Shown here: piece by piece, positions 19,598-42,978 of the stretch
Layout: each line of letters opens with the position of its first letter
Numbering within the stretch: the stretch's first letter is position 1
Assembly: GCA_003056245.1 (NCBI GenBank)
Contig: MVDH01000001.1
Location: 1 to 64,000 of the forward strand
From: Cellvibrio sp. 79
GTDB taxonomy: Bacteria > Pseudomonadota > Gammaproteobacteria > Pseudomonadales > Cellvibrionaceae
Direction: 5' to 3'
Length of the DNA stretch: 64,000 nt
Position numbers and translations under genes: made by a program
Notes under the pieces: generated by a model
Databases searched by the model: none
What the model was told of the DNA's origin: nothing
The model's input: only the letters and a program-made list of their open reading frames with translations

Positions 19598-19681
19598 CAA
19601 CCCCTCCCTGACCCTCCCCTTTAAAAAGGGAGGGGATAGAAGCTCCTCCCCCTTGCAAAGGGGAGGTTGGGAGGGGGTTAC
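19598..19681. repeat. C-rich dispersed palindromic repeat, copy 1
   Basis: CCCCTCCCTGACCCTCCCC and GGGGAGGTTGGGAGGGGG form long imperfect inverted arms around AGGGAGGGG...CTCCTCCCCC. A closely related copy lies at 35081-35160 and a fragment near 44227. It sits right after rplI, before the terminator. Confidence 0.75.
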
Positions 19682-30713: not shown

Positions 30714-30740
30714 CCTGTCTTTTGATTATCAAAAGGCAGG
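30714..30740. promoter_or_regulatory. 27-bp near-perfect palindrome between divergent genes
   Basis: CCTGTCTTTTGAT and ATCAAAAGGCAGG are 13-base arms (one mismatch) around a single T, flanked by AAAAC and GTTTT. It lies 70 bp before the AraC gene and 120 bp before the yjfI-like gene. It may be an operator or a transcription block; it could also fold as a terminator-like stem. Confidence 0.5.
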
Positions 30741-30811: not shown

Positions 30812-30843
30812 TTACATGTAATATTTGATTTATTACATGTGAT
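30812..30843. promoter_or_regulatory. repeated TTACATGT operator before the flotillin operon
   Basis: TTACATGTAAT (30812-30822) and TTACATGTGAT (30833-30843) are direct repeats exactly 21 bp apart (two helical turns). They also form the inverted repeat ACATGTAAT-N9-ATTACATGT. They end 17 bp before the first ATG. Confidence 0.65.
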
Positions 30844-30860
30844 GCCTTACTGTTGGCCCC

Positions 30861-31490
30861 ATGCAGAAAAAATCATCAGCACATTACCAGCGCGAATACC
30901 GCAATCGGCTGCGAGAGCAAGGGTTCGTGAAAAAAGAGGTGTGGATTCTCCCGGAGAATGCGCATCGCCTTGCTCGCTATGAGATGGAGTTGCGGGTGTC
31001 TGCCAAGCAGCTTGTTTCCCGTGGGTTTATGCCAGTGAAAGGAGAAAGTCGAATGACCGATGTTGTTAACCGTTGGACCACCCCAAGCCTCTACGATGCG
31101 CTGAGCAAGTCAGACTTGTTTGCCGGCGAGCGAGCGGAAATCGAGTTAATTGATGGTGTGGCGCCAGCGCTGCATATCACTATGAATGAATATGGCGATT
31201 TGCCGCTGTTCGTCACTGTGTCGGGCGAACAAATTGTGGTGGAGGCAATCCTCTGGTCGTTGTCAGAGGTCACTGATGCAGCACTGTTTAATGAAACTGT
31301 ATTGCGCACGCATAAATATTTTCCGCTCTCGACCATCAGTCTGGACAAAATCGATGGCGATGATTGTTACCACATGTTTGGTGCATTGAGTTCTGCATCT
31401 AGTTTGCAAGATGTGACATTTGAAATTGAAATTCTGGCTTCCAATGTAATTCAGGCAACCGAAGCTTATGCGGACTTTTTAATTAAATAA
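30861..31490 (+). CDS. YjfI-like DUF2170 protein with basic N-terminal region
   Basis: The C-terminal part (about 70-209) resembles DUF2170, the family of E. coli YjfI, which is always near a PspA-type gene (yjfJ). The first about 50 residues are basic and helical (YQREYRNRLREQGFVKKEV), possibly a small DNA-binding domain. First gene of the operon, 39 bp before the PspA-like gene. No ribosome site is visible before ATG 30861, and the TTACATGT repeats end only 17 bp away, so the transcript may have almost no leader. Binding of these repeats by this protein is a guess. Confidence 0.75.
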   Translation: MQKKSSAHYQREYRNRLREQGFVKKEVWILPENAHRLARYEMELRVSAKQLVSRGFMPVKGESRMTDVVNRWTTPSLYDALSKSDLFAGERAEIELIDGVAPALHITMNEYGDLPLFVTVSGEQIVVEAILWSLSEVTDAALFNETVLRTHKYFPLSTISLDKIDGDDCYHMFGALSSASSLQDVTFEIEILASNVIQATEAYADFLIK

Positions 31491-31529
31491 TCAACTTTTA
31501 AATTACGGATATTAACGAGGTAAAGACGT

Positions 31530-32228
31530 ATGAATATCTGGTCGAAAATGATTACCGCCTTGCGCGGTGGTGTGAATGAAGCGGGTGAAGCGATAGTAGA
31601 TAGTCAAGCATTGCGTATTTTGGATCAGGAAGTGCGCGATGCCGGTGAGGAATTAAAACGCTCCAAAGATAGTCTCGCGGAAATTATGGCGCGCCAGAAA
31701 TTGGCTGAAGAAAAGTGCAAGCAATTGCAAAAAAATGTTGAAGAACATGAAGGTTACGCCGCAAAGGCCTTGGAAAAAGGCGATGAAAAACTTGCATTGG
31801 AAGTCGCCGAGCGTATTGCAGAATTTGAAAATAACCTGGCTTCAGAAAAAGACGCCGCAGAAGGTTTCGCTCACAGTGTAGTGAAATTGCGCGCGGCAAT
31901 TGATCAGGCTGAAAAAAATATCAAGCGACTGAAGCAACAAGTAGATACCGTAAAAGCCACTGAAAATGTGCAGCGCGCGCAAGCGGCTGTTGCCGAGCGC
32001 CACAGTGGTTCAGATTCGAAAATGCGCACAGCGATGGAATCGCTGGAACGAATCAAGGAGCGCCAGGCATTAAAGGATGCGCAATTTAAAGCAGCTGATG
32101 AAATGGCCAAAACCACGGGTGATGATTCGCTTAAAGCAAAATTGGAGGCGGCGGGCATAACCACTAACGGCAAATCAGCGGAAGATGTATTGGCGCGCAT
32201 TAAAAATAAGTCAGCGAGTCCGCAGTAA
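31530..32228 (+). CDS. PspA/IM30-family protein (YjfJ-like)
   Basis: PspA-type proteins coat and remodel the inner membrane under stress and share the ESCRT-III fold. The N-terminal amphipathic helix (MNIWSKMITALRGG) and the long charged coiled coil (about 25-175) are seen. The shorter C-terminal region has the KLEAAGI segment typical of the YjfJ branch. It has 232 aa and no membrane segment. A conserved GAGG lies before the ATG. It is followed by a 153-bp gap with no gene. Confidence 0.88.
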   Translation: MNIWSKMITALRGGVNEAGEAIVDSQALRILDQEVRDAGEELKRSKDSLAEIMARQKLAEEKCKQLQKNVEEHEGYAAKALEKGDEKLALEVAERIAEFENNLASEKDAAEGFAHSVVKLRAAIDQAEKNIKRLKQQVDTVKATENVQRAQAAVAERHSGSDSKMRTAMESLERIKERQALKDAQFKAADEMAKTTGDDSLKAKLEAAGITTNGKSAEDVLARIKNKSASPQ

Positions 32229-32381
32229 TATCGTGTAGTAAAGGCTTTCATATTAAGGATGAACAAGAATGGATTCTCGATAGGCGAGTTTGTTAATGAG
32301 TGCGACTAATAATTGAGCTCATGGCAAATCTATTCGGAGTGTTTTTAACAGCCATCTGTATAGTTTTCTGGAATATTCAGT

Positions 32382-33050
32382 ATGAATGATTTTTTACTCA
32401 CGATTGTCAGTTTCCCAACGGTGATTTTCACCATTGTGTTAGGCATTGCTGTGTTGTATTGGATTTGTGCGGCATTTGGTTTGCTGGAGGTTGAGATTCT
32501 GGATGTAAATGTACCGGATCTTGATGGCCAACTTCATGCCCATGCCGAACATAGCTTTGCCGAGACCTTTGCCGGTATTCTGTTGCGCTTGGGGCTCAAT
32601 GGCGTGCCGGTTACTATTATCATCACTTTTATTGCATTAATTGGCTGGTTTATCAGTTATTACCTGAGTTATTTCGAATGGCTAATGTTCGGTTATGGCT
32701 GGCTCAGATTTTTAATTGGCATTCCGGTTTTTTTGTTTTCCTTGTATCTGGCGGTATTAATAACGGCGCAGTTAATTAAACCGCTGCGAAAGTTGTTTGC
32801 AAAAACCGAGCAGTTTGTGGAAAAGAAAATCCTTGGCCAAACCGCGATTGTACGTTCATCTAAAGTGGATTCCCATTCCGGGGAAGCTAATTTTGATGAT
32901 GGTGGTGCAGGGCTGATTATAAAAGTGCGCGCAATTGGTGATCAGCAATTTATACGCGGTGAGCGTGTGGTGCTGCTGGAGTATCGCGCTGGGCAACATG
33001 TGTATAACGTAATTTCCGAAGCAGAATTTCTGGGTAAGCCCAGCGAATAA
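32382..33050 (+). CDS. yqiJ: YqiJ-like NfeD-family membrane protein
   Basis: Three to four membrane helices (about 10-35, 65-90, 100-125) are followed by a C-terminal OB-fold (about 145-220; LGQTAIVRS, GLIIKVRAIG, LLEYRAGQHVYNV), the arrangement of NfeD-family partners of flotillins. In E. coli yqiJ precedes yqiK, as here. It lies 37 bp before the flotillin gene. A role in membrane microdomain assembly is likely from known NfeD-flotillin pairs. Confidence 0.87.
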   Translation: MNDFLLTIVSFPTVIFTIVLGIAVLYWICAAFGLLEVEILDVNVPDLDGQLHAHAEHSFAETFAGILLRLGLNGVPVTIIITFIALIGWFISYYLSYFEWLMFGYGWLRFLIGIPVFLFSLYLAVLITAQLIKPLRKLFAKTEQFVEKKILGQTAIVRSSKVDSHSGEANFDDGGAGLIIKVRAIGDQQFIRGERVVLLEYRAGQHVYNVISEAEFLGKPSE

Positions 33051-33087
33051 TTGTTAACTATTAAAAAGGGTAAAAAGGAGCACAAGC

Positions 33088-35082
33088 ATGTTTGAAGCAG
33101 CGATGGCCACACCGGTTCTTGCCGTTATTGGAATTGCATTTTTGGTTCTGCTGGGTTTGGCAGGATTATTCAATGCGTTTTACAACAAGGTTGCCCAAGG
33201 TACAGCCTTGATAGTTAACGATATGAGTTCAACGCCCAAAGTGCATTTTACCGGTGCGCTGGTGTGGCCAATTATCCACAAAAAGGAATTGATGAATATT
33301 TCCCTGATTACATTGGAAGTGGATCGCCGCGGTCGCGACGGTTTGATCTGTAAGGATAATATGCGTGCAGATATCACCGTCGCATTTTATCTGCGCGTAA
33401 ATGAAACACCGCAAGATGTATTGCGTGTTGCCAAAGCAATTGGCGCCGAACGTGCATCAGATCGTGCAGCAGTGGAATTATTGTTTGCTGCCAAGTTTTC
33501 CGAAGCATTAAAAACAGTGGGCAAGCAAATTGACTTTATTCAGCTGTTTGAAAATCGTATGGAATTCCGCGAGAAAATTGTCCAGGTTATTGGCGATGAT
33601 TTGAATGGTTATGTCTTGGAAGACGTGGCGATTGACTACATCGAGCAAACTCCAAAGTCATCCCTTGATCCCAATAACATTCTTGACGCAGAAGGTATCA
33701 AAAAGATCACCGAGCTGACTGCTGCCCAAAATGTCCGTACCAATATTCTTGAGCGCGACGAAGAATTAGCGATCAAGAAAAAGAACGTAGAAACCACCGA
33801 AGCCATGCTTGCACTTGAGCGTCAACAAGCCGATGCCGAAGCGCGCCAAAAACGCGAGATCGCTTCTATTCAGGCACGCGAAGAAGCGGAAACCAAAAAA
33901 GTTCAGGAAGAAGAGCGCCGCAAATACGAACAAACTGCGATTCAGGTAGCGCAGGACCTGTCGGTGCAAACTGAAAACCAGAAGCGCGAAGTTGAAGTTG
34001 CCGAACAAAACCGGTTGCGTGCTGTTGCCATTGAACAGGAAAAAGTCACCCGTGCGCGTGAGCTGGAAATTGTTTCCCGTAAGCGTGAAGTTGAGTTGCA
34101 AACCATTGAAGCCGAGAAGGCGATTGAGATACAGAAAAAAGAAATCGCTAATGTTATCCGCGAACGTGTAGTGGTGGATAAAACCGTTGCCATCGAAGAA
34201 GAGCGCATTAAAGAAGTGCGTGAAGTTTCTGATGCGGATCGGAAGAAGCAAGTACAAGTGTTGGCTGCAGAAGCGGCAGCGGAAGAAGAAAAAGTGAAGC
34301 AAGTGAAATCGGCTGAAGCAGAAGAGCTTTCGGCGAAACACAAAGCCAGCGAAATTATGACCATGGCGCAAGCCAAACTGGAGGCCTCTGCAAAAGAAGC
34401 GGAGGCGATGAAAAAGTTGGCCGAAGGCCTGCAAGCCGAACGCGCGGCTCCCGGTTTAGCTGATGCGAAAGTTCAGGAAGCCAAAGCAACTGCATTGGAA
34501 AAAGAAGGTGTTGCCGAGGCCAGCGTTATTCGCGCTAAAGGCACTGCGAATGCTGAAGCAGGTAAAGCGGAAGCTGAGGTTATCACCGCAAAAGGCCATG
34601 CTGAAGCAGACGTTATCGCAATCAAAGGCACATCTGAAGCAACGGCGAAGAAAGAAATTGGTTTGGCAGGCGCTGATGTAACTCGTGAACAATTCAAAGC
34701 GGAAGCTGACGGCTTGACCGAGAAGTTCGAAGCGATGAATGCGATGAGCGACAGTGCTCGTTCGCATGAAGAATTCCGTATGGGGCTCGAAACTTCGCTG
34801 AAAGAAACCTTGGCAAGTATCGCGGCAGGCAAAGAAATTGCGAAGGAAAATGCGGAAATTCTGGCGATTGCATTGCAGAAAGCGCATATCGATATCGTCG
34901 GTGGTGAAGCGCAATTCTTCGATAATTTCGCCAAGTCATTGTCGATTGGTAAAGCGATTGATGGCCTTGCTGGCAAGAGTGGCGTGATTCAGGCAGTTAT
35001 GGATCGTTTTATAAATAAACCTGCGGTAGCAACACCGACTGTAGCAAAAGAAAAAGCGGAAGATGTTGAGGTTGTAGGTTAA
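33088..35082 (+). CDS. yqiK: flotillin (YqiK-like)
   Basis: Flotillins scaffold detergent-resistant membrane domains. The N-terminal helix (about 7-30) anchors the protein. An SPFH/Band 7 domain follows (about 35-205), then a very long alanine/glutamate/lysine-rich coiled coil (about 215-600) and a C-terminal tail. The 664-aa length is long for the family and close to the YqiK group. The gene is preceded by yqiJ, its usual partner. The stop codon lies at the edge of a dispersed repeat (35081-35160) which separates it from the AAA+ gene without a terminator being obvious. AAGGAGCACAAGC precedes the ATG. Confidence 0.93.
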   Translation: MFEAAMATPVLAVIGIAFLVLLGLAGLFNAFYNKVAQGTALIVNDMSSTPKVHFTGALVWPIIHKKELMNISLITLEVDRRGRDGLICKDNMRADITVAFYLRVNETPQDVLRVAKAIGAERASDRAAVELLFAAKFSEALKTVGKQIDFIQLFENRMEFREKIVQVIGDDLNGYVLEDVAIDYIEQTPKSSLDPNNILDAEGIKKITELTAAQNVRTNILERDEELAIKKKNVETTEAMLALERQQADAEARQKREIASIQAREEAETKKVQEEERRKYEQTAIQVAQDLSVQTENQKREVEVAEQNRLRAVAIEQEKVTRARELEIVSRKREVELQTIEAEKAIEIQKKEIANVIRERVVVDKTVAIEEERIKEVREVSDADRKKQVQVLAAEAAAEEEKVKQVKSAEAEELSAKHKASEIMTMAQAKLEASAKEAEAMKKLAEGLQAERAAPGLADAKVQEAKATALEKEGVAEASVIRAKGTANAEAGKAEAEVITAKGHAEADVIAIKGTSEATAKKEIGLAGADVTREQFKAEADGLTEKFEAMNAMSDSARSHEEFRMGLETSLKETLASIAAGKEIAKENAEILAIALQKAHIDIVGGEAQFFDNFAKSLSIGKAIDGLAGKSGVIQAVMDRFINKPAVATPTVAKEKAEDVEVVG

Positions 35083-35160
35083 CCCCTCCCTAACCCTCCC
35101 CTTGAAAGGGGGAGTCAAATCCCTCCCTCTTTATCAAGGGGGAGGCCTGGTGGGGGTAAA
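35081..35160. repeat. C-rich dispersed palindromic repeat, copy 2
   Basis: AACCCCTCCCTAACCCTCCCC...GGGGGAGG...GGTGGGGGTAAA is closely related to the copy at 19598-19681. It sits inside the operon between yqiK and the AAA+ gene and would form a strong RNA stem, which could stabilise or attenuate transcripts. Confidence 0.75.
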
Positions 35161-35174
35161 AAAAGGAAAAATCA

Positions 35175-38100
35175 ATGTCGCAAAATACCGACGCTGTCGC
35201 TGACAATATTGTAGATAAGGCCGTCGCCGAAGGCGGTGCCTATGAAATTATTCGCAAACGTTTGCTGGACCAAGGTCAGCAACTCACGCAAAAAGTTCGC
35301 GAGCTTAATGAGGCGCGCCTTGCTGAATTTGGCAGCTCTGCGATGGTTGCCACAGCACGCGTGCGTGTGCGTACGGAGAATAATTGTATCCCGCGCGATA
35401 TCGTACAGGTTGGTGAATACCTGTTGTTTGGTTACAACGTTTTTATCGGTTTAAAAAAAGAAACCAAAGTAGAAGATGTTTTTTCACTGTTTATAAAAAA
35501 AGATACCGATTCCGGCGTTGAGCTGGAGCAAGTCAGTTTTACCGGCACTTTTTTAGCCGAGCAAAGCTTCGTTAATGATTTTGATGAATTGTATCGTTAT
35601 TACAAAGATACTCGCATCGTTGAGTTAACCATCAATAATGGAAAATTGCTGGCTGGCTTTCAGATTGGTGAGCGCCTGGATGACATCCGCGTATTCAGCT
35701 GGTCCATATCGCCTGACGGCAAAACAGTAAAATACATTGATAATCGCGGCGAGCGCGATATCCAATTGCCGCCTGCATTTGATTTTGAATGGATTCCCGC
35801 TACCCGTGAAAATGCAGTCCACGGTCGTCACCCGCATTTAAATATTCTCGATAAGGTTTTCGTTGAAACTGTTGGCGGCGACCTTACTATTAAAATCGAA
35901 AATAACACCGAAGATGGTTTGGGTATTTACCGCGAAACCGTAGAAGATAAAACCCAATCGCTAGATGATGCCAGTGTCTTCTATGCGGCAGTTGGCAGTT
36001 TGGTGTTGCTGAAAATTCGTCCTTATCGCGAAGAACAATTCCGCTATTTGATTTTTAATTCGCTCACGCAAAGCGTATTGAGGATCGACAAAATTGGTCA
36101 AAGTTGCGTGCAGCTACCGGAAAATCACGGCATTATTTTCCCTGGTGGTTACTATCTCAATACCGGCGAATACAAAACCTTCGAAGAAGATAACAGCGCA
36201 TTCCGTTTCAAGCGAATGATTCGCTCACCCAATGGTGAGGATGTTCTCTATGTATTTTATGAGCCAGCAATGGGATTGGTCTCGCTATTGGCATACAACA
36301 TTATTGAAAAGAAACTGCAAAATCCTATTTATGGTAGTGGTTATGCACTCGCAGATAATGGCGAGATTGTTATCTTCTCTGCGGAAGCAGAACCGACGCG
36401 TGTTCATCCCATGCAAATATGGGAGACGCCTTATGTTAGTGCTGAGTTCGCCAGCAAAGCCCCGGCGCGCCAGAATTTTTATGGCCGTATTGGCAACAAT
36501 GAATTGGTGCGCGGCATTTCAGATTTTTACAGCATTGGCCGGATTATCGGTAACCAATCAGTCTCTGTGCGTTTGTACGAAGAATTAAGCCTGGCCGCTA
36601 AAAAAGTATTTGATAGTTATTACTGGCTGAGTGAAAGCGAAACCACCGCGATTGCCGCGGTATTGAAAGAGATTTCTGCCACGGCAGAGTTGGTGATCGA
36701 TGAATTCGAGAAAGTAGAATCCATTCGCCAGCAATCCGCTAAAGCCATGCAAGATGCAGAGCGTGAGCAGGAAACTATTTTACAATCCTTGCGCCCTGAA
36801 AATTGGAGTACTGCCGAAGATTATGTCGATGCTTTAAGTCGCGTGCGCAAGCAGCGCGGCCATCTGGCTACTATTAAAGATTTTCGTTACATCGATCAGG
36901 TGCGTATTGCACAGCTTGACCAGCAACTGCTGGATGCAAATACCACATTAAGCGAACAAACCGTTGTTTATCTTTCGGATGAAAAATCCCTCACGCCTTA
37001 TCTCACCAAGCTGGATGAATTAAACCAGCAAGTAGAAAAAGCCGAAACCAATGCCGCCATTTCCCCCATTATTGAAGTTATCGAGAAAACGGCTTCCGGG
37101 CTGGATTTGTTATCGGAGCTGATGGGAACGTTGAAAGTAGATGATGCGACTGTACGCACACGTATTGTGGACGCTATCTCCGAGGTTTATGCCAAGCTCA
37201 ACCAAAGTCGCGCTAATGCAAAACACAAACAAAAGAATTTTGGCTCTGCGGAAGCTGTAGCGCAATTTGGTGCGCAATTTAAATTATTCTCGCAAAGTAT
37301 TGCTCATGCCCTGGGCTTGGCGACTACGCCGGAAAAGTGCGATGAGCAGCTTTCAAAATCGTTGGTGCGCCTGGAGGAACTGGAAGGGCAGTTCAGTGAA
37401 TTTGATCAATTCCTCACTGACATTATGGCCAAGCGTGAGGAAATTTATGAAAGTTTCCAGGAGCATAAGCAACGCTTGCTAGACGAGCGTCAGAAAAAAG
37501 CACAAAGCATTACTGATGCTGCATCACGCATTCTCTCCAGCATTGAAAAGCGTTCGCTGGGGATTAGCAGTCAGGAAGATTTAAATACTTATTTTGCTTC
37601 CGATGCGCTGGTACTAAAAATCAATGATTTGGTTGAGCAATTAAAAGCGCTGGATAATGCGGTAAAAGCCGATGATCTGGATGCGCGTTTTAAAGCGATT
37701 AAAGGCCAGGCGTTGCGCGCATTGCGTGATAAAAGCGATATTTTTGAAGAGGGCGGCAACGTTATTAAACTGGGCAAGCACAAGTTTAGTGTGAATACCC
37801 AGGAGCTGGACCTGACCATTATTCCGCGCGAGGGTGAATTGAATTTTCATCTGGCAGGAACGGATTATTATGCACCGGTTGTGCAATCGGAATTGCTGGC
37901 ATTAAAGGATTATTGGGCAATTAGTTTGGAGTCTGAAACCGCGCAGGTATACCGTGCAGAATATTTGGCGGCGTTAATCATCGATGCTGCTACACAGCAG
38001 AGCGATGGCATTACTTATAATGTGTTGCATGAAGCGTTAGTGGATGATGAAAAGCTCGCAAAACTGGTGCGCGATTTTAGTTCGGCGCGTTACAAAGAGG

Positions 38101-40481
38101 GCTATCAAAAAGGTATTCACGATCAGGATGCGATGCTCCTGTTAAAGGTTCTTGTACCCGCGTTGGATTCGGTAGACCTGCTTAGGTTTGATCCGTTGGC
38201 TCGTGCACTGGCACAGGTTTTTTGGGCCAATATTAATGAGTTTTCTCTCAAATCCAAGAACCAGAAGTTTAATCTTTCGTTTGAAACCTGGACTGATCGC
38301 GCTATTTCCGCCAAACAAATGCAGCGCTTGTTTGGAAGCCTGGATGCAGTCCATTTATTGGTAGAAGAAATAGCCGAAACATTGGGTGAATTTATTGAGC
38401 TTCATCCATTAGTGGTAAATACATTGGATATTCGCCGCGCAGCAGAATATTTAGTGGAAGAGCTTTCACGTGAGCGCACGGAATTTATTACCAGCAAATA
38501 TGCGGTGGCTTTGGTTAATGCATTCAAACAATCGCTTGATGATAAAAGCTGGCGCCATTACCAGGATGTAACCGCCAAAATGCAAGGCTGGCCAGCAGAG
38601 CGCTGGAGTCTGACGGCTGCCTGGTTGCATGCATTAGTTAAAGATCAGCAGCTGGAACATTTACAGCGTTATATTCCCGAGGCAGTGGCGGTATTAAAAA
38701 CCGATCAGCGACTGGATCGCCGTTATACCGAAGTGGAGTTGGAATTAAATGTGTCCGGATTGCTCGGCGAACATCCGCGCATTCAGGATCGCACCCTGGC
38801 ATTTGCGCTGGACGAGTTTGTGCAACGGCTAGCGCAGCATCGATACGAAGTGGTGCCGCAATATCAGCGCTATTTGCAATTGCGCCAGCAAGTTGTTGAG
38901 CAAGAACGTTACACATTACGCCTCAATGAGTTCAAAGCAAAACCGCTCAGCTCGTTTGTGCGCAACCGTTTAATTAACGAATCCTATTTACCAATAATTG
39001 GCGATAACCTTGCGAAACAGATTGGTGCATTAGGAGCCAACAAGCGTACCGATTTAATGGGTATGTTGATGATGATCTCTCCACCCGGTTACGGTAAAAC
39101 TACGTTAATGGAATACGTAGCGAATCGTCTCGGTTTGATTTTTATGAAAATCAATTGCCCGTCATTGGGCCATGATGTGTTATCGCTTGATCCCGAGCAA
39201 GCGCCTAACGCGACTGCACGGCAGGAATTGGTAAAAGTGAATCTTGCGTTGGAAATGGGTAATAACGTCATGCTTTATCTCGACGATATTCAGCACACCA
39301 ATCCGGAATTTTTACAAAAATTTATTTCACTTTGCGATGGCACCCGTCGCATCGAAGGTGTGTGGCAAGGTAAAACCAAAACTTATGATATGCGCGGGAA
39401 AAAATTCTGCGTGTGCATGGCGGGTAACCCTTACACCGAATCCGGTGAGGCTTTTAAAGTTCCTGACATGCTTGCCAACCGCGCCGATATTTATAACCTC
39501 GGCGATATTCTGGGTGGTATGGAAGAACAATTTGCGCTGAGCTATATCGAAAACGCATTGACCTCCAACGCAGTGTTATCGCCTTTGGCGCTGCGCGATA
39601 TGCAGGATGTGTATAAATTTATCGCCATGGCCAAAGGTGAGCAAGTTGCTACTACCGATTTAAGCCATGCGTATTCGGGCGCAGAAGTTAATGAAATAGT
39701 CGGTGTGCTGAAAAAACTATTTGAAATCCAGAAAGTGATTTTGAAAATTAACCAGCAATACATCGCTTCTGCTGCACAGGATGATAAATTCCGCGTTGAG
39801 CCGTCGTTCAAATTGCAAGGCAGTTACCGCAATATGAATAAGATGACCGAGAAAGTGTCAGCGGTCATGAATGATGCTGAACTGATGCAAATGATCGCTG
39901 ACCATTATCTGGGGGAAGCGCAAATGCTGACGACCGGTGCGGAAAGTAATTTGCTTAAGCTGGCGGAATTGCGCGGCAATATGACCAGCGAGCAAAAAGC
40001 GCGGTGGGAGCAAATCAAAAAAGATTTCCTGCGCAATAAAGCCATGGGTGGTGATTCAGCAGACACCGGCCAAAAACTTATTGTGCAATTAGCGGATATG
40101 GCGGAAGGCGTAAATAAAATTGCAGCGCTGGCAGAGCACAAACCGGAACCTACTGTGCCCGCAGTAACGCAAGATGCTGCGGTTGCACAATTGGTACAGC
40201 AATCGTTACAGCGTCTGGAAAAACTTGCGCAACCCGCATCACCTAAAGTGGAAGTGATTAATCAACCCTTGCCAGGTTTGGATAAAGTGTTGAGTGTACT
40301 TGCCCAAACATTGGAGGGAGCCATTTTACCGCTGGTGCGCAATATGGATAAAAAACTGGATATCGATTTGCGCAATCATGAAAAAATTGAACAGGTTTCA
40401 CAACAAATTAAAACCTTGCAACAGGAACTTGCGGCCTCTAAAAAACCAAAACCATCATCGCCTTCGCCTGAGGTGAAATAA
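35175..40481 (+). CDS. giant AAA+ ATPase, 1768 aa (DUF3686/'DNA repair ATPase' type)
   Basis: This very large cytoplasmic ATPase has, in order, a helical start (1-70), a beta-rich region (about 80-460), a long coiled coil (about 500-840), an all-helical middle, an AAA+ module and a helical tail. Walker A lies at 1302-1310 (SPPGYGKTT), Walker B at 1365-1371 (VMLYLDD), and sensor-1-like CMAGNPYTESGEAF near 1415. No DNA-binding or nuclease motif is evident. Proteins of this build are often labelled DNA repair ATPase, a name I consider unproven; the flotillin/PspA setting suggests membrane work, as Vps4 does for ESCRT-III. The start has AAGGAAAAATCA upstream. There are 3 bp to the rhomboid gene. 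Confidence 0.87.
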   Translation: MSQNTDAVADNIVDKAVAEGGAYEIIRKRLLDQGQQLTQKVRELNEARLAEFGSSAMVATARVRVRTENNCIPRDIVQVGEYLLFGYNVFIGLKKETKVEDVFSLFIKKDTDSGVELEQVSFTGTFLAEQSFVNDFDELYRYYKDTRIVELTINNGKLLAGFQIGERLDDIRVFSWSISPDGKTVKYIDNRGERDIQLPPAFDFEWIPATRENAVHGRHPHLNILDKVFVETVGGDLTIKIENNTEDGLGIYRETVEDKTQSLDDASVFYAAVGSLVLLKIRPYREEQFRYLIFNSLTQSVLRIDKIGQSCVQLPENHGIIFPGGYYLNTGEYKTFEEDNSAFRFKRMIRSPNGEDVLYVFYEPAMGLVSLLAYNIIEKKLQNPIYGSGYALADNGEIVIFSAEAEPTRVHPMQIWETPYVSAEFASKAPARQNFYGRIGNNELVRGISDFYSIGRIIGNQSVSVRLYEELSLAAKKVFDSYYWLSESETTAIAAVLKEISATAELVIDEFEKVESIRQQSAKAMQDAEREQETILQSLRPENWSTAEDYVDALSRVRKQRGHLATIKDFRYIDQVRIAQLDQQLLDANTTLSEQTVVYLSDEKSLTPYLTKLDELNQQVEKAETNAAISPIIEVIEKTASGLDLLSELMGTLKVDDATVRTRIVDAISEVYAKLNQSRANAKHKQKNFGSAEAVAQFGAQFKLFSQSIAHALGLATTPEKCDEQLSKSLVRLEELEGQFSEFDQFLTDIMAKREEIYESFQEHKQRLLDERQKKAQSITDAASRILSSIEKRSLGISSQEDLNTYFASDALVLKINDLVEQLKALDNAVKADDLDARFKAIKGQALRALRDKSDIFEEGGNVIKLGKHKFSVNTQELDLTIIPREGELNFHLAGTDYYAPVVQSELLALKDYWAISLESETAQVYRAEYLAALIIDAATQQSDGITYNVLHEALVDDEKLAKLVRDFSSARYKEGYQKGIHDQDAMLLLKVLVPALDSVDLLRFDPLARALAQVFWANINEFSLKSKNQKFNLSFETWTDRAISAKQMQRLFGSLDAVHLLVEEIAETLGEFIELHPLVVNTLDIRRAAEYLVEELSRERTEFITSKYAVALVNAFKQSLDDKSWRHYQDVTAKMQGWPAERWSLTAAWLHALVKDQQLEHLQRYIPEAVAVLKTDQRLDRRYTEVELELNVSGLLGEHPRIQDRTLAFALDEFVQRLAQHRYEVVPQYQRYLQLRQQVVEQERYTLRLNEFKAKPLSSFVRNRLINESYLPIIGDNLAKQIGALGANKRTDLMGMLMMISPPGYGKTTLMEYVANRLGLIFMKINCPSLGHDVLSLDPEQAPNATARQELVKVNLALEMGNNVMLYLDDIQHTNPEFLQKFISLCDGTRRIEGVWQGKTKTYDMRGKKFCVCMAGNPYTESGEAFKVPDMLANRADIYNLGDILGGMEEQFALSYIENALTSNAVLSPLALRDMQDVYKFIAMAKGEQVATTDLSHAYSGAEVNEIVGVLKKLFEIQKVILKINQQYIASAAQDDKFRVEPSFKLQGSYRNMNKMTEKVSAVMNDAELMQMIADHYLGEAQMLTTGAESNLLKLAELRGNMTSEQKARWEQIKKDFLRNKAMGGDSADTGQKLIVQLADMAEGVNKIAALAEHKPEPTVPAVTQDAAVAQLVQQSLQRLEKLAQPASPKVEVINQPLPGLDKVLSVLAQTLEGAILPLVRNMDKKLDIDLRNHEKIEQVSQQIKTLQQELAASKKPKPSSPSPEVK

Positions 40482-40484
40482 CCG

Positions 40485-41042
40485 ATGCGGCGTTTATCGG
40501 CAAAGTTTCGCTGGTTATTTTTCTTTGCGGGAATAATGGTTGTTGCTCACGTATTTAATTGGGTATTCCAGGGATGGTTATACCAATTCGGTTTAATTCC
40601 CCGACAGTTGGATTCGTTGCCGGGAATTTATATCGCGCCGTTTTTACATGGCGACCTTGGGCATTTACTCAATAATCTGGTTGGTTTGTTTATCTTTAGC
40701 AGTTTGTTGTTTGTGCATTCATTAAACCGCTATTTATGGAGCAGTTTTTTTATTATCACCTTAACCGGGCTATTGGTCTGGTGCTTCGGGCGAAGCGCTT
40801 TGCATATTGGGGCCAGTGGCTGGATATTTGGCTTGTGGAGTTTGACAATCGCGATTGCCTGGTTTGATCGTCGTTTCTTGAATATATTAATTGCGTTGGT
40901 TGTAGCATTTTTTTACGGTGGAATGTTGTGGGGAGTATTGCCCACAGATCCGCGCGTATCATTTGAGTCGCATTTGTTTGGTGCGATTGCTGGTGTCGTG
41001 TGTGCATTTTTACAATTTAAATTAATTAAAAGTAGAAAATAG
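40485..41042 (+). CDS. rhomboid-family intramembrane serine protease
   Basis: A six-helix rhomboid protease of 185 aa is predicted. The catalytic pair is S111 in HIGASGWIFG and H163 in ESHLFG; the supporting residues H60, N63/N64 in HGDLGHLLNN are present. The start lies 3 bp after the AAA+ gene. Rhomboids cut membrane proteins in the bilayer, so a target may be found among the operon's products, such as the flotillin or YqiJ. The following gene begins 8 bp later. Confidence 0.9.
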   Translation: MRRLSAKFRWLFFFAGIMVVAHVFNWVFQGWLYQFGLIPRQLDSLPGIYIAPFLHGDLGHLLNNLVGLFIFSSLLFVHSLNRYLWSSFFIITLTGLLVWCFGRSALHIGASGWIFGLWSLTIAIAWFDRRFLNILIALVVAFFYGGMLWGVLPTDPRVSFESHLFGAIAGVVCAFLQFKLIKSRK

Positions 41043-41050
41043 AGAGTGAT

Positions 41051-41737
41051 ATGCGACAACAAGAACTGGAAAATTGGTTGCTAGCCAGTTTAAGCGATTT
41101 TAAATTAAGCCAATCCGAAGCGCTGGAATTGCGCGACATTCTCCCGCGCCTTATCAATGACGATATCGCGTTTACGCGCAATAAGGCATTTCAACTCGCG
41201 CGCGAGCTGGTTCATGTCGGCGGCGATAATGCAGTGGCAAGTTTATTGTGGTTGGAAAAAATCAGTAAGGTAATTGATAACTTTCGCCAATCAGAAACCT
41301 CGTCCCTCGCGGAAGCCCACTTCAGTCCGGGAGAAGATTGTCGCCGCCAATTGCTTGATTTACTTGTCAGTGCCCGTGAATCAATCGATATCAGTGTATT
41401 TACTATTTCCGATGATCGATTGGCCGAGGCAATTATCACTGCGCACAAACGCAATGTTAACGTTCGATTAATTACCGATAATGATAAAGCGCAAGATCAG
41501 GGCAGTGATGTCTATTACATGATCGATCAAGGTTTACCGGTGCGAATGGATTCCACCGCAAATCATATGCATCACAAGTTTGCGGTGATTGATAAAAAAA
41601 TCCTCGTCAATGGCAGCTTCAACTGGACTCGCTCCGCAACGGATTATAACCAGGAAAATATTTTGGTAACGGATGAGCCTAAATTGGTTAGCGCCTACCT
41701 GACAGAGTTTGAAAATTTGTGGCAGGAATTTAAATAA
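41051..41737 (+). CDS. phospholipase D-like protein (single HKD motif)
   Basis: The C-terminal domain (about 85-225) has one HxK(x)4D motif, H174-H-K176-FAVI-D181, then NGSFNWTRSATDYNQEN. One motif per chain implies a dimer, as in Nuc or mitochondrial PLD. The N-terminal about 75 residues are a helical, acidic domain unlike classical PLD. No signal peptide is seen, so it is probably cytoplasmic. The family holds lipases and nucleases, and the substrate cannot be fixed here. In the operon, cardiolipin or phospholipid handling is attractive but not shown. Confidence 0.88.
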   Translation: MRQQELENWLLASLSDFKLSQSEALELRDILPRLINDDIAFTRNKAFQLARELVHVGGDNAVASLLWLEKISKVIDNFRQSETSSLAEAHFSPGEDCRRQLLDLLVSARESIDISVFTISDDRLAEAIITAHKRNVNVRLITDNDKAQDQGSDVYYMIDQGLPVRMDSTANHMHHKFAVIDKKILVNGSFNWTRSATDYNQENILVTDEPKLVSAYLTEFENLWQEFK

Positions 41738-41779
41738 CTAACATTTTGAGCATTATTAAATAATTAATAAGGAGCCACC

Positions 41780-42325
41780 ATGTACTGCAGCAATTGTAAA
41801 AACTCTCAATTGGAACCTCAGGAATTAGAACCGGGGTTGGTAGCAGCGAGCTGCCCATCGTGTCATGGTGCTTTGGTATCGCTAATGAACTATCGTTTCT
41901 GGGCTGACCGTTATGCCAGCGCCAGCACGAGCGGTGTAGTCGAGCCTGCGAATGAGGCAGTAATCAATGAGTCTGAATCGGTTCATTCATGTCCCAAATG
42001 CAGCCGCCTGATGATGAAATATCAAATTGGCCCGCAAACACAACATAAACTGGATTTATGCAGTGCATGCGATGAGGCCTGGCTTGATAAAGGCGAATGG
42101 CAATTGCTCAAACAGTTGGACTTGCAAGGTAAGTTGCCAAAGATTTTTACCGATGCATGGCAACGGAATATTCGCAAGCAACGCCAGGAACTGGCATTGA
42201 ATGAGCGCTACGGAAAATTACTGGGTGAAGAATCATTTTCCCGCGTAAAAGAATTCAGGGATTGGTTGTTACAACAACCGAACAAGGATGCTATTAAACA
42301 ATACTTGATTTCACATCAGGAATAA
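41780..42325 (+). CDS. zinc-ribbon (zf-TFIIB-like) protein
   Basis: Four CxxC pairs are visible: CSNC, CPSC (residues up to about 29), CPKC and CSAC (about 73 and 94). The last two with LDLCSACDEAWLDKGEW match the zf-TFIIB domain. About 120-180 is helical and basic. It has 181 aa, with GGAG before the ATG, and lies 42 bp after the PLD-like gene. The role is unknown. Confidence 0.85.
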   Translation: MYCSNCKNSQLEPQELEPGLVAASCPSCHGALVSLMNYRFWADRYASASTSGVVEPANEAVINESESVHSCPKCSRLMMKYQIGPQTQHKLDLCSACDEAWLDKGEWQLLKQLDLQGKLPKIFTDAWQRNIRKQRQELALNERYGKLLGEESFSRVKEFRDWLLQQPNKDAIKQYLISHQE

Positions 42326-42347
42326 TTAACGTTAATCAGGAGTTTTT

Positions 42348-42584
42348 ATGGCGGAATCACGCGATTATCTGGAAATGTCATTTCGTTCCATTCAATGCTT
42401 TAGCAATGATGGTAAGTTGGACGCAGCTGAACTGGGGAAAATTCTCGCAATTGCTGAGAAGGATGGTGTAATTGATAACAATGAAATACGTGTTTTACAG
42501 AATATCATTGCGCGGATAAAACCCCACGAAGTGGATTCTGCGATGCGTGTCAAAATGATCGAAATTAGCGAGAAAATATCCTGA
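42348..42584 (+). CDS. small TerB-like acidic protein, 78 aa
   Basis: The protein is short, helical and acidic: NDGKLDAAELGKILAIAEKD and GVIDNNEIRVLQNI, which resemble the TerB helix pairs that coordinate metal in tellurite-resistance proteins. It is only half the usual TerB length, so the call is tentative. It is the last gene of the operon; a terminator follows at 42630. Confidence 0.65.
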   Translation: MAESRDYLEMSFRSIQCFSNDGKLDAAELGKILAIAEKDGVIDNNEIRVLQNIIARIKPHEVDSAMRVKMIEISEKIS

Positions 42585-42629
42585 TCATTTCAGTAAAAAA
42601 GTACATCTGTGAAAAATAGCAATAAAAGA

Positions 42630-42663
42630 ATAAAAGGGTTAAGCGTAAGCTTAACCCTTTTAT
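42630..42663. terminator. bidirectional terminator ending the flotillin operon
   Basis: ATAAAAGGGTTAAGC and GCTTAACCCTTTTAT form a perfect 15-bp stem with a GTAA loop. Rightward it ends the 11.7-kb operon; leftward it ends the converging gene whose stop is at 42664. Confidence 0.92.
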
Positions 42664-42978
42664 TTATGAATTTGAGTCTTCTATGCTATCGGCAAGCTTG
42701 CGCGGCTCTTGTTCACCGTTGAGGTGAATTTGTAGTTCCAGTGCCGCAACCCCTACATTAATTGATGAAGTTAATGACAGTGGTTGGTCAGCTAGCGGGC
42801 GACCTTTTAATTCCTCCAGCGCAATTTCCAGAATTCGATACATTTGTGCGGTAGAAGCACGTACCGCTTTTTCATTCAGTGAATCTACGCCGCTTGTTAC
42901 AGAGTTAGTGACAGCGCCAATTGCATCATTAGTGAGGACCAATGCTTGCGAACCAAGGTCTTTCATTTTATCCAGCAT
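42664..42978 (-). CDS. hypothetical helical protein, 104 aa
   Basis: The chain is amphipathic and helical with no recognisable domain; the N-terminal about 40 residues (MLDKMKDLGSQALVLTNDAIG) could lie on a membrane. GGAGGAAATTACC before the ATG is a strong ribosome site. It is 22 bp downstream of the 43001 gene on the same strand, so the two are probably cotranscribed. It converges on the flotillin operon across the shared terminator. The function is unknown. Confidence 0.65.
   Translation of the reverse strand: MLDKMKDLGSQALVLTNDAIGAVTNSVTSGVDSLNEKAVRASTAQMYRILEIALEELKGRPLADQPLSLTSSINVGVAALELQIHLNGEQEPRKLADSIEDSNS

Follow-up and report, generated by a model that had tools for sequence, protein, structure and literature searches.

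Gene content and organisation of the locus

The window analysed here, that is, the whole stretch of 64,000 nucleotides from Cellvibrio sp. 79 (contig MVDH01000001.1, positions 1 to 64,000), contains at 30861-42584 nine open reading frames (ORFs) on the + strand, at the same positions as in a first-pass annotation made from the letters alone. These nine genes make up a single unit that belongs to a membrane-stress system; the core of this system has already been described in other bacteria, and we propose that the first gene of the unit, bacA, encodes a ribbon-helix-helix (RHH)-like repressor of the operon's own promoter. The features are the following:

30812-30821, no strand: operator site 1, palindrome TTACATGTAA, paired with site 2
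30825-30830, +: predicted -35 hexamer TTGATT, between the operator sites
30833-30842, no strand: operator site 2, TTACATGTGA, inside the predicted -35/-10 spacer
30848-30853, +: predicted -10 hexamer TACTGT, ending 7 nt before the ATG; leaderless mRNA predicted
30861-31490, +: bacA, with a putative RHH/MazE-like N-terminal part (~1-46), a variable linker and a C-terminal DUF2170 (CesT/Tir-like) domain (~70-209)
31530-32228, +: bacB, PspA/IM30 (Pfam)
32382-33050, +: bacC, YqiJ/YuaF-like membrane protein (Pfam, just under the cut-off)
33088-35082, +: bacD, flotillin (YqiK-like) with one N-terminal hydrophobic segment
35175-40481, +: DUF3686-DUF7902-AAA+ protein of 1768 aa, Walker A GYGKT from residue 1305
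40485-41042, +: rhomboid protease (Pfam and aligned relatives)
41051-41737, +: single-HKD PLD-superfamily protein (Pfam and aligned relatives)
41780-42325, +: zinc-ribbon protein (Pfam)
42348-42584, +: small 'TerB-like' protein of 78 residues, family assignment not confirmed
42629-42664, no strand: terminator stem of 16 pairs

The intergenic gaps measure, in gene order, 39, 153, 37, 92, 3, 8, 42 and 22 nt; a consensus scan of the two larger ones (153 and 92 nt) detected nothing sigma70-like on the + strand, and Shine-Dalgarno-like words precede at least five of the downstream genes. The strong terminator predicted at first pass was recovered between convergent ORFs.

Pfam E values were 2.6e-53 for DUF2170, 3.3e-49 for PspA_IM30, 1.2e-199 for DUF3686 (in addition to DUF7902 and AAA), 1.4e-17 for Rhomboid, 1.8e-32 for PLDc_2 and 1.3e-5 for a TFIIB-type zinc ribbon (above the cut-off). 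BacC matches YqiJ_N narrowly below the threshold (21.9 vs 23 bits), and BacD, which has no Pfam match, aligns by BLASTP with E. coli YqiK (29% over 450 aa, E 8e-41). The first-pass gene names are thereby borne out for DUF2170, PspA, YqiJ (sub-threshold), flotillin, AAA+, rhomboid, PLD and zinc ribbon; the name 'TerB-like', kept here as a label, is backed by no family match, EF-hand models matching below the threshold only. Neither this small protein nor the flotillin has a convincing solved relative by sequence. PF04012 (PspA) and DUF3686 have a single match each in the 5.7-Mb genome, the former being BacB, and a Pfam search for PspF, PspB and PspC, confined to the products of the nine genes, found none of the three. 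In the rhomboid protein, GASG and a His further on, which we take to be its catalytic residues, are invariant across the 19 aligned rows (window plus 18), and the PLD gene retains in 10/10 aligned rows an HxKx4D that is presumably its HKD motif.

The operator pair and the N-terminal domain of BacA

Two 10-bp palindromes lie 21 bp apart upstream of bacA (30812-30842). This distinct operator, already remarked on at first pass, proved to be the most informative feature of the locus: the strict pair occurs at one place only in the 5.7-Mb genome and in 0 of 100 shuffles of the window. The search pattern had a variable gap of 9-16 (real spacers 11-16, paired sites 21-26 bp apart); another pattern, with a fixed 12-base spacer, was discarded, having no match in the window and only matches with 3 mismatches elsewhere in the genome. 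With the AAA+ protein as query against named genomes, we obtained 109 relatives and, from the best 80 of them, collected 77 loci, which makes this locus set a selected one. The palindrome TYACATGTRA occurs twice upstream of bacA in the window and in 23 relatives (one site of L013 with a mismatch), and the strict pattern was found in 23 of the 24 loci that have a DUF2170 gene, the exception being L013, and in none of the 53 that lack one. The tandem palindromic operator that RHH repressors have at their own promoter is in this respect present, as judged by co-occurrence only.

A class-level sample of 274 genomes contains the pattern in 9 genomes and DUF2170 in 19 (21 copies). Six copies have the N-terminal domain, and directly upstream of each of these stands the pattern (one of the six belongs to our own genome and one, in G218, is apparently the L017 record, which leaves four new ones), and the other 15 copies have no site at all in the 450 bp before the domain. 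Three genomes have the pattern and no DUF2170 match, and these matches were treated as background: that of G185 lies inside an ORF resembling a glycosyltransferase by eye, that of G130 lies between ORFs, and the third is in G127. The reversed-pattern control gave 0 throughout this sample. In G127 (G127:C30:299-330, L091), the match is a pair resembling the operator, and the small ORF immediately downstream looks helix-turn-helix-like by eye.

We then classified 72 distinct DUF2170 genes (domain duplicates removed) by their N-terminal part, with 450 bp upstream and one mismatch allowed per site. Genes with a strong N-terminal match (at least 78 bits) have the operator pair in 36/36 cases, 24 of them forming the discovery set and 12 being others. 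The pair is absent from the one gene with an N-terminal remnant (L110, 0/1) and is found in 1 of the 18 genes without N-terminal match; this one is L056, in which the domain lies after the operator in another reading frame and which has three sites. Among the 17 negatives is E. coli yjfI, devoid of both N-terminal domain and operator. In a later set, whose selection by the DUF2170 domain preceded any check of the upstream regions, the pair was present in 25/25 genes, 22 of them mismatch-free; this set is the new part of 38 genomes (13 had already been seen, including G349, the L110 case) and retains near-identical relatives. The co-occurrence of domain and operator is the strongest evidence that BacA may be an operator-binding regulator. 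A literature search with the operator letters gave, judged by title, nothing on bac or Psp among the matches listed.

Promoter geometry and the predicted leaderless start

In 26 of the 36 upstream regions, the best -35 hexamer starts 8 bp 5' of site 2 and the spacer measures 17 bp; the mean promoter match is 7.97/12, vs 6.72 (standard deviation 0.16) with shuffled flanks. The distance from the end of site 2 to the ATG is 16-19 nt in 57 of 58 rows, the search having allowed any value up to 60; the remaining row reads L056 a second time, and the rows exclude L013, L162, L176, L177 and L179. Only in L056, among these rows, does a Shine-Dalgarno-like word precede bacA. From these features the bacA mRNA is probably leaderless. 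Such a layout parallels that of lambda cI transcribed from PRM, a leaderless and self-repressed regulator gene.

Domains of BacA

The first ~46 residues of BacA contain 22 invariant columns in 24 aligned sequences (the frame-broken L056 was omitted because its motif is out of frame); a variable linker separates them from the DUF2170 domain. We tentatively suggest that this conserved N-terminal part is an RHH-like DNA-binding domain. For the predicted model of BacA, the top fold match was the solved P. aeruginosa BacA chain 8q8o (Z 23.6, 54% identity, residues 70-209), and type III secretion system (T3SS) chaperones come next, in good agreement with the C-terminal domain. The list of fold matches is filled by this C-terminal domain and so carries no information on the N-terminal part; likewise, the solved chain comprises the C-terminal domain only, so the proposed DNA-binding part is not seen in a structure. 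An annotated start of P. aeruginosa BacA at a GTG (residue 27) was considered and dropped, the nearest relatives of the solved chain having GTC there. Identity to this chain is at most 78% in 398 genomes of the genus, so that P. aeruginosa apparently lies outside the sample.

Conservation of the operon among relatives

Gene order was counted in the 62 loci that have at least 6 kb 5' and at least 3 kb 3' of the AAA+ gene (15 short-flank loci dropped), with gene profiles built from the same loci, so that distant copies may be missed in the counts. The YqiJ and flotillin genes precede the AAA+ gene, in this order, in 61/62 loci, a TerB-like gene being interposed in some (in Pseudomonas, it is placed between flotillin and AAA+), and DUF2170-PspA stands at the front of YqiJ-flotillin-AAA+ in 21/62. 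The first-pass annotation had regarded the nine + strand genes as a single unit, and scattering in relatives, named beforehand as the finding that would speak against it, did not occur. Since the order is kept, the linkage is real, with YqiJ-flotillin-AAA+ as core, DUF2170-PspA as a frequent front module and the enzymes as optional. Counts over the 62 loci are 21 for DUF2170, 22 for PspA, 15 for rhomboid, 10 for TerB-like, 8 for PLD and 8 for zinc ribbon; the last four do not belong to the core. These accessory genes are found in PspA-form loci in 14/15 (rhomboid), 10/10 (TerB-like), 8/8 (PLD) and 6/8 (zinc ribbon) cases, and the exact nine-gene order recurs among the 62 loci in L002 (Cellvibrio sp. 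OA-2007) only. The window itself has the bac/CesT-PspA-flotillin-AAA+ arrangement, with DUF2170-PspA first, then YqiJ, flotillin and AAA+ on one strand.

The proposed switch also extends beyond this arrangement. Two class genomes, G071 and G201, have the N-terminal domain and the operator before DUF2170-PspA with no flotillin nearby, so the switch is common to two operon kinds. In G071 (L152), the RHH-DUF2170 and PspA genes are followed by genes for an ion-channel/TrkA-N protein, DUF2491, DUF350, DUF1190 and a glutathionylspermidine synthase; G201 has ORFs of similar lengths, whose families were not scanned.

The predicted model of the AAA+ core has a mean predicted local distance difference test (pLDDT) score of 74.5. 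Among the matches listed in the fold comparison, CbbQ/NorQ (MoxR type), Clp, RuvB, Lon, sigma54 activators and Vps4 reached Z 8.8-10.2, and the longest alignments were those of NorQ/CbbQ2 (up to 227 residues), vs up to 138 for Vps4. PF00004, AAA_5 and AAA_22 each match 39/39 AAA+ members, and in the window core AAA_5 covers residues 69-192 and PF00004 residues 70-116. With no clear winner, clade assignment by fold was dropped, and the comparison speaks neither for nor against a Vps4-like partner of PspA.

Proposed control of the operon and alternative explanations

We propose, with a probability of roughly 0.65, that the locus is an envelope-stress operon of the bac type (PspA/flotillin/AAA+) on which BacA, as an autorepressor, exerts direct negative feedback. 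A BacA dimer would bind the two TYACATGTRA palindromes via its N-terminal RHH-like domain; as one site lies just before the -35 and the other between -35 and -10, bound BacA would block RNA polymerase, and the mRNA would start at or next to the ATG, so that bacA would be translated leaderless. The C-terminal CesT/Tir-like domain would bind PspA (BacB), in keeping with a predicted BacA-BacB contact of 0.981 in the accessible part of a 2026 paper (PMC13092808). Upon membrane damage, PspA would assemble on membranes, the BacA-PspA complex would change and the operator would be released. The output of PspA coat, YqiJ-flotillin scaffold and AAA+ motor would then rise, the rhomboid, PLD and other accessory enzymes might act on membrane proteins or lipids, and free BacA would shut the operon off again. 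The repressor is our best reading and agrees with published proteome data, in which a bacA transposon mutant has BacB-F up 6.1- to 13.5-fold (Wallart et al. 2024, PMC10948618).

Several observations weigh against this proposal. The Pseudomonas genes with a second, weaker type of N-terminal match (36-62 bits) have the pair at 21-26 bp in 0/17 cases, and at least one exact site in 9/17, a count that does not include 24 of the 54 matches in the underlying search. The sequences compared are related, so the counts are not independent events and no probability is claimed for them. The window promoter matches the sigma70 consensus at 7/12 positions only, with the consequence that a stricter promoter scan lists other sites and misses the predicted one. 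The distance of 5-9 nt from the end of the predicted -10 to the ATG, in the same rows as above, comes from a search range that was itself narrow, so that only the site-2-to-ATG distance is independent support. The MazE-like family PF11455 matches the BacA N-terminal part in 14/24 members, all below threshold (best E 0.0083), and hhalign of the two gives P 0.003 and a probability of 10%; the BacA monomer model is poor in this part (pLDDT 52-73), and the N-terminal profile run against solved structures gave one chance-level match only.

In the accessible parts of the bac papers, an RpoN site is proposed and BacA is discussed as a T3SS-chaperone homologue (PMC10948618, PMC2587700), which also counts against our proposal; the sigma54 suggestion was made on P. 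aeruginosa, whose DNA is outside this comparison. The operon could in that case be sigma54-driven, with BacA a post-transcriptional CesT/ExsC-like chaperone, as the good match of its C-terminal domain to T3SS chaperones would allow, and the palindromes would belong to another regulator. We consider this unlikely: the palindromes track BacA's own N-terminal domain, E. coli yjfI, without this domain, has none, and no sigma54 element is shared by the 36 upstream regions (200 bp), the GG-N10-GC element being wholly missing in 20 and reaching 8/11 at best at scattered positions. A slight excess remains (mean 2.64 vs 1.84 for shuffles, standard deviation 0.41, about two standard deviations), and the scan would miss sites with a changed -12 base. 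BacA could also be an activator or a dual regulator, since site 1 lies just 5' of the -35, at a position usable by activators; this is less probable still, as site 2 overlaps the predicted core promoter and five Bac proteins went up, not down, in the bacA mutant (PMC10948618, accessible text), for which readthrough effects are possible, the mutant being a transposon insertion. Finally, the first-pass suggestion of an anti-phage defence operon appears very improbable. The PLD gene does match DrmC/DpdK/Mko-type models at low score (general PLD-domain matches, 38 bits at most), but among the other eight proteins PADLOC (membership cut at E 0.001 or better) matches PspA only, twice and marginally (E ~5e-4).

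Relation to known systems

The joining of these genes, set at first pass against their separation in E. coli, is not new: the anatomy of an integrated unit was right, and the core had been published. According to the accessible part of Ravi et al. 2024 (PMC11237479), DUF2170, PspA, flotillin, a YqiJ/YuaF protein and a large AAA+ protein form the core of a CesT/Tir-PspA-band-7-AAA+ operon group, joined by PLD in some Proteobacteria; the main text of that paper has no 'rhomboid', 'TerB' or 'MtfA', and the RHH factor mentioned there sits at the end of another gene group and does not form part of DUF2170. In P. aeruginosa, bacABCDEF is an operon by reverse transcription PCR, and the words 'DNA-binding' and 'ribbon' were not found in the accessible main text, where sigma54 is proposed (Wallart et al. 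2024, PMC10948618). PA3731 was described as osmotically induced with a putative RpoN site, and PA3732 as 16 kDa (accessible part of Mace et al. 2008, PMC2587700). The window starts, like P. aeruginosa bac, with DUF2170 (BacA)-PspA (BacB)-BacC-BacD, and differs from it by the rhomboid, PLD, zinc-ribbon and TerB-like genes after AAA+. A search of the open-access literature found no operon combining rhomboid and PspA, judged by titles and abstract starts, and no DUF3686.

E. coli has BLASTP relatives of DUF2170, PspA and flotillin, and of YqiJ by sub-threshold Pfam only, in yjfIJ and yqiJK. Unlike in the window, these are two separate loci (4.41 and 3.19 Mb), as had been noted at first pass, and YjfI has neither the N-terminal domain nor an operator. 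In the E. coli pspF-pspABC system, PspA inhibits PspF. The window resembles it in having feedback on a PspA operon, and differs in having a predicted repressor instead of a sigma54 activator.

What seems new, on sequence grounds, is therefore not the gene union but the apparent control switch, a first gene repressing its own promoter. If true, the switch would let a single protein connect the state of the membrane with transcription, would account for the proteome published for the bacA mutant and would supersede the sigma54 proposal; it would bear on how PspA systems without PspF, PspB and PspC sense damage and control themselves, and the conserved operator would make the regulon computable. 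We lean slightly towards the broader view that RHH-DUF2170 proteins may be an unrecognised class of membrane-stress repressors that read PspA assembly, with one tandem operator and a leaderless transcript serving two kinds of PspA operon, and with a bare chaperone in E. coli.

Additional observations

Just 5' of the operon promoter, at 30714-30740, the window has a 12-pair stem-loop with a T tail, whose core letters recur in L001, L004 and L006. The flotillin-AAA+ gap contains a G-rich inverted repeat (35098-35158) with a related copy at ~19646-19678; it could act as an attenuator within the operon or represent a mobile intergenic repeat. In L009 (13123-13980) and L038 (15904-16773), a gene that looks metallopeptidase-like (by eye, no family search) lies between the rhomboid and zinc-ribbon genes; its product contains HEF.HLVDMADG and a C-terminal tail CPCGSGKRYK.CC, and we take it to be MtfA-like.

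In Pseudomonas, the bacA-type genes of L110 and L118 lack the N-terminal domain nearly or fully, and also the operator. Four genes of the second type (L119, L120, L122 and L124) have two exact TYACATGTRA sites 46-52 bp apart, not 21-26. In L156, also of the second type, a rhomboid gene (2312-2929) directly follows DUF2170-PspA, with no flotillin or AAA+, in an operon of the same kind as that of G071 (DUF2491-DUF350-DUF1190-glutathionylspermidine-synthase type), so that the association of rhomboid with PspA does not require flotillin and AAA+.

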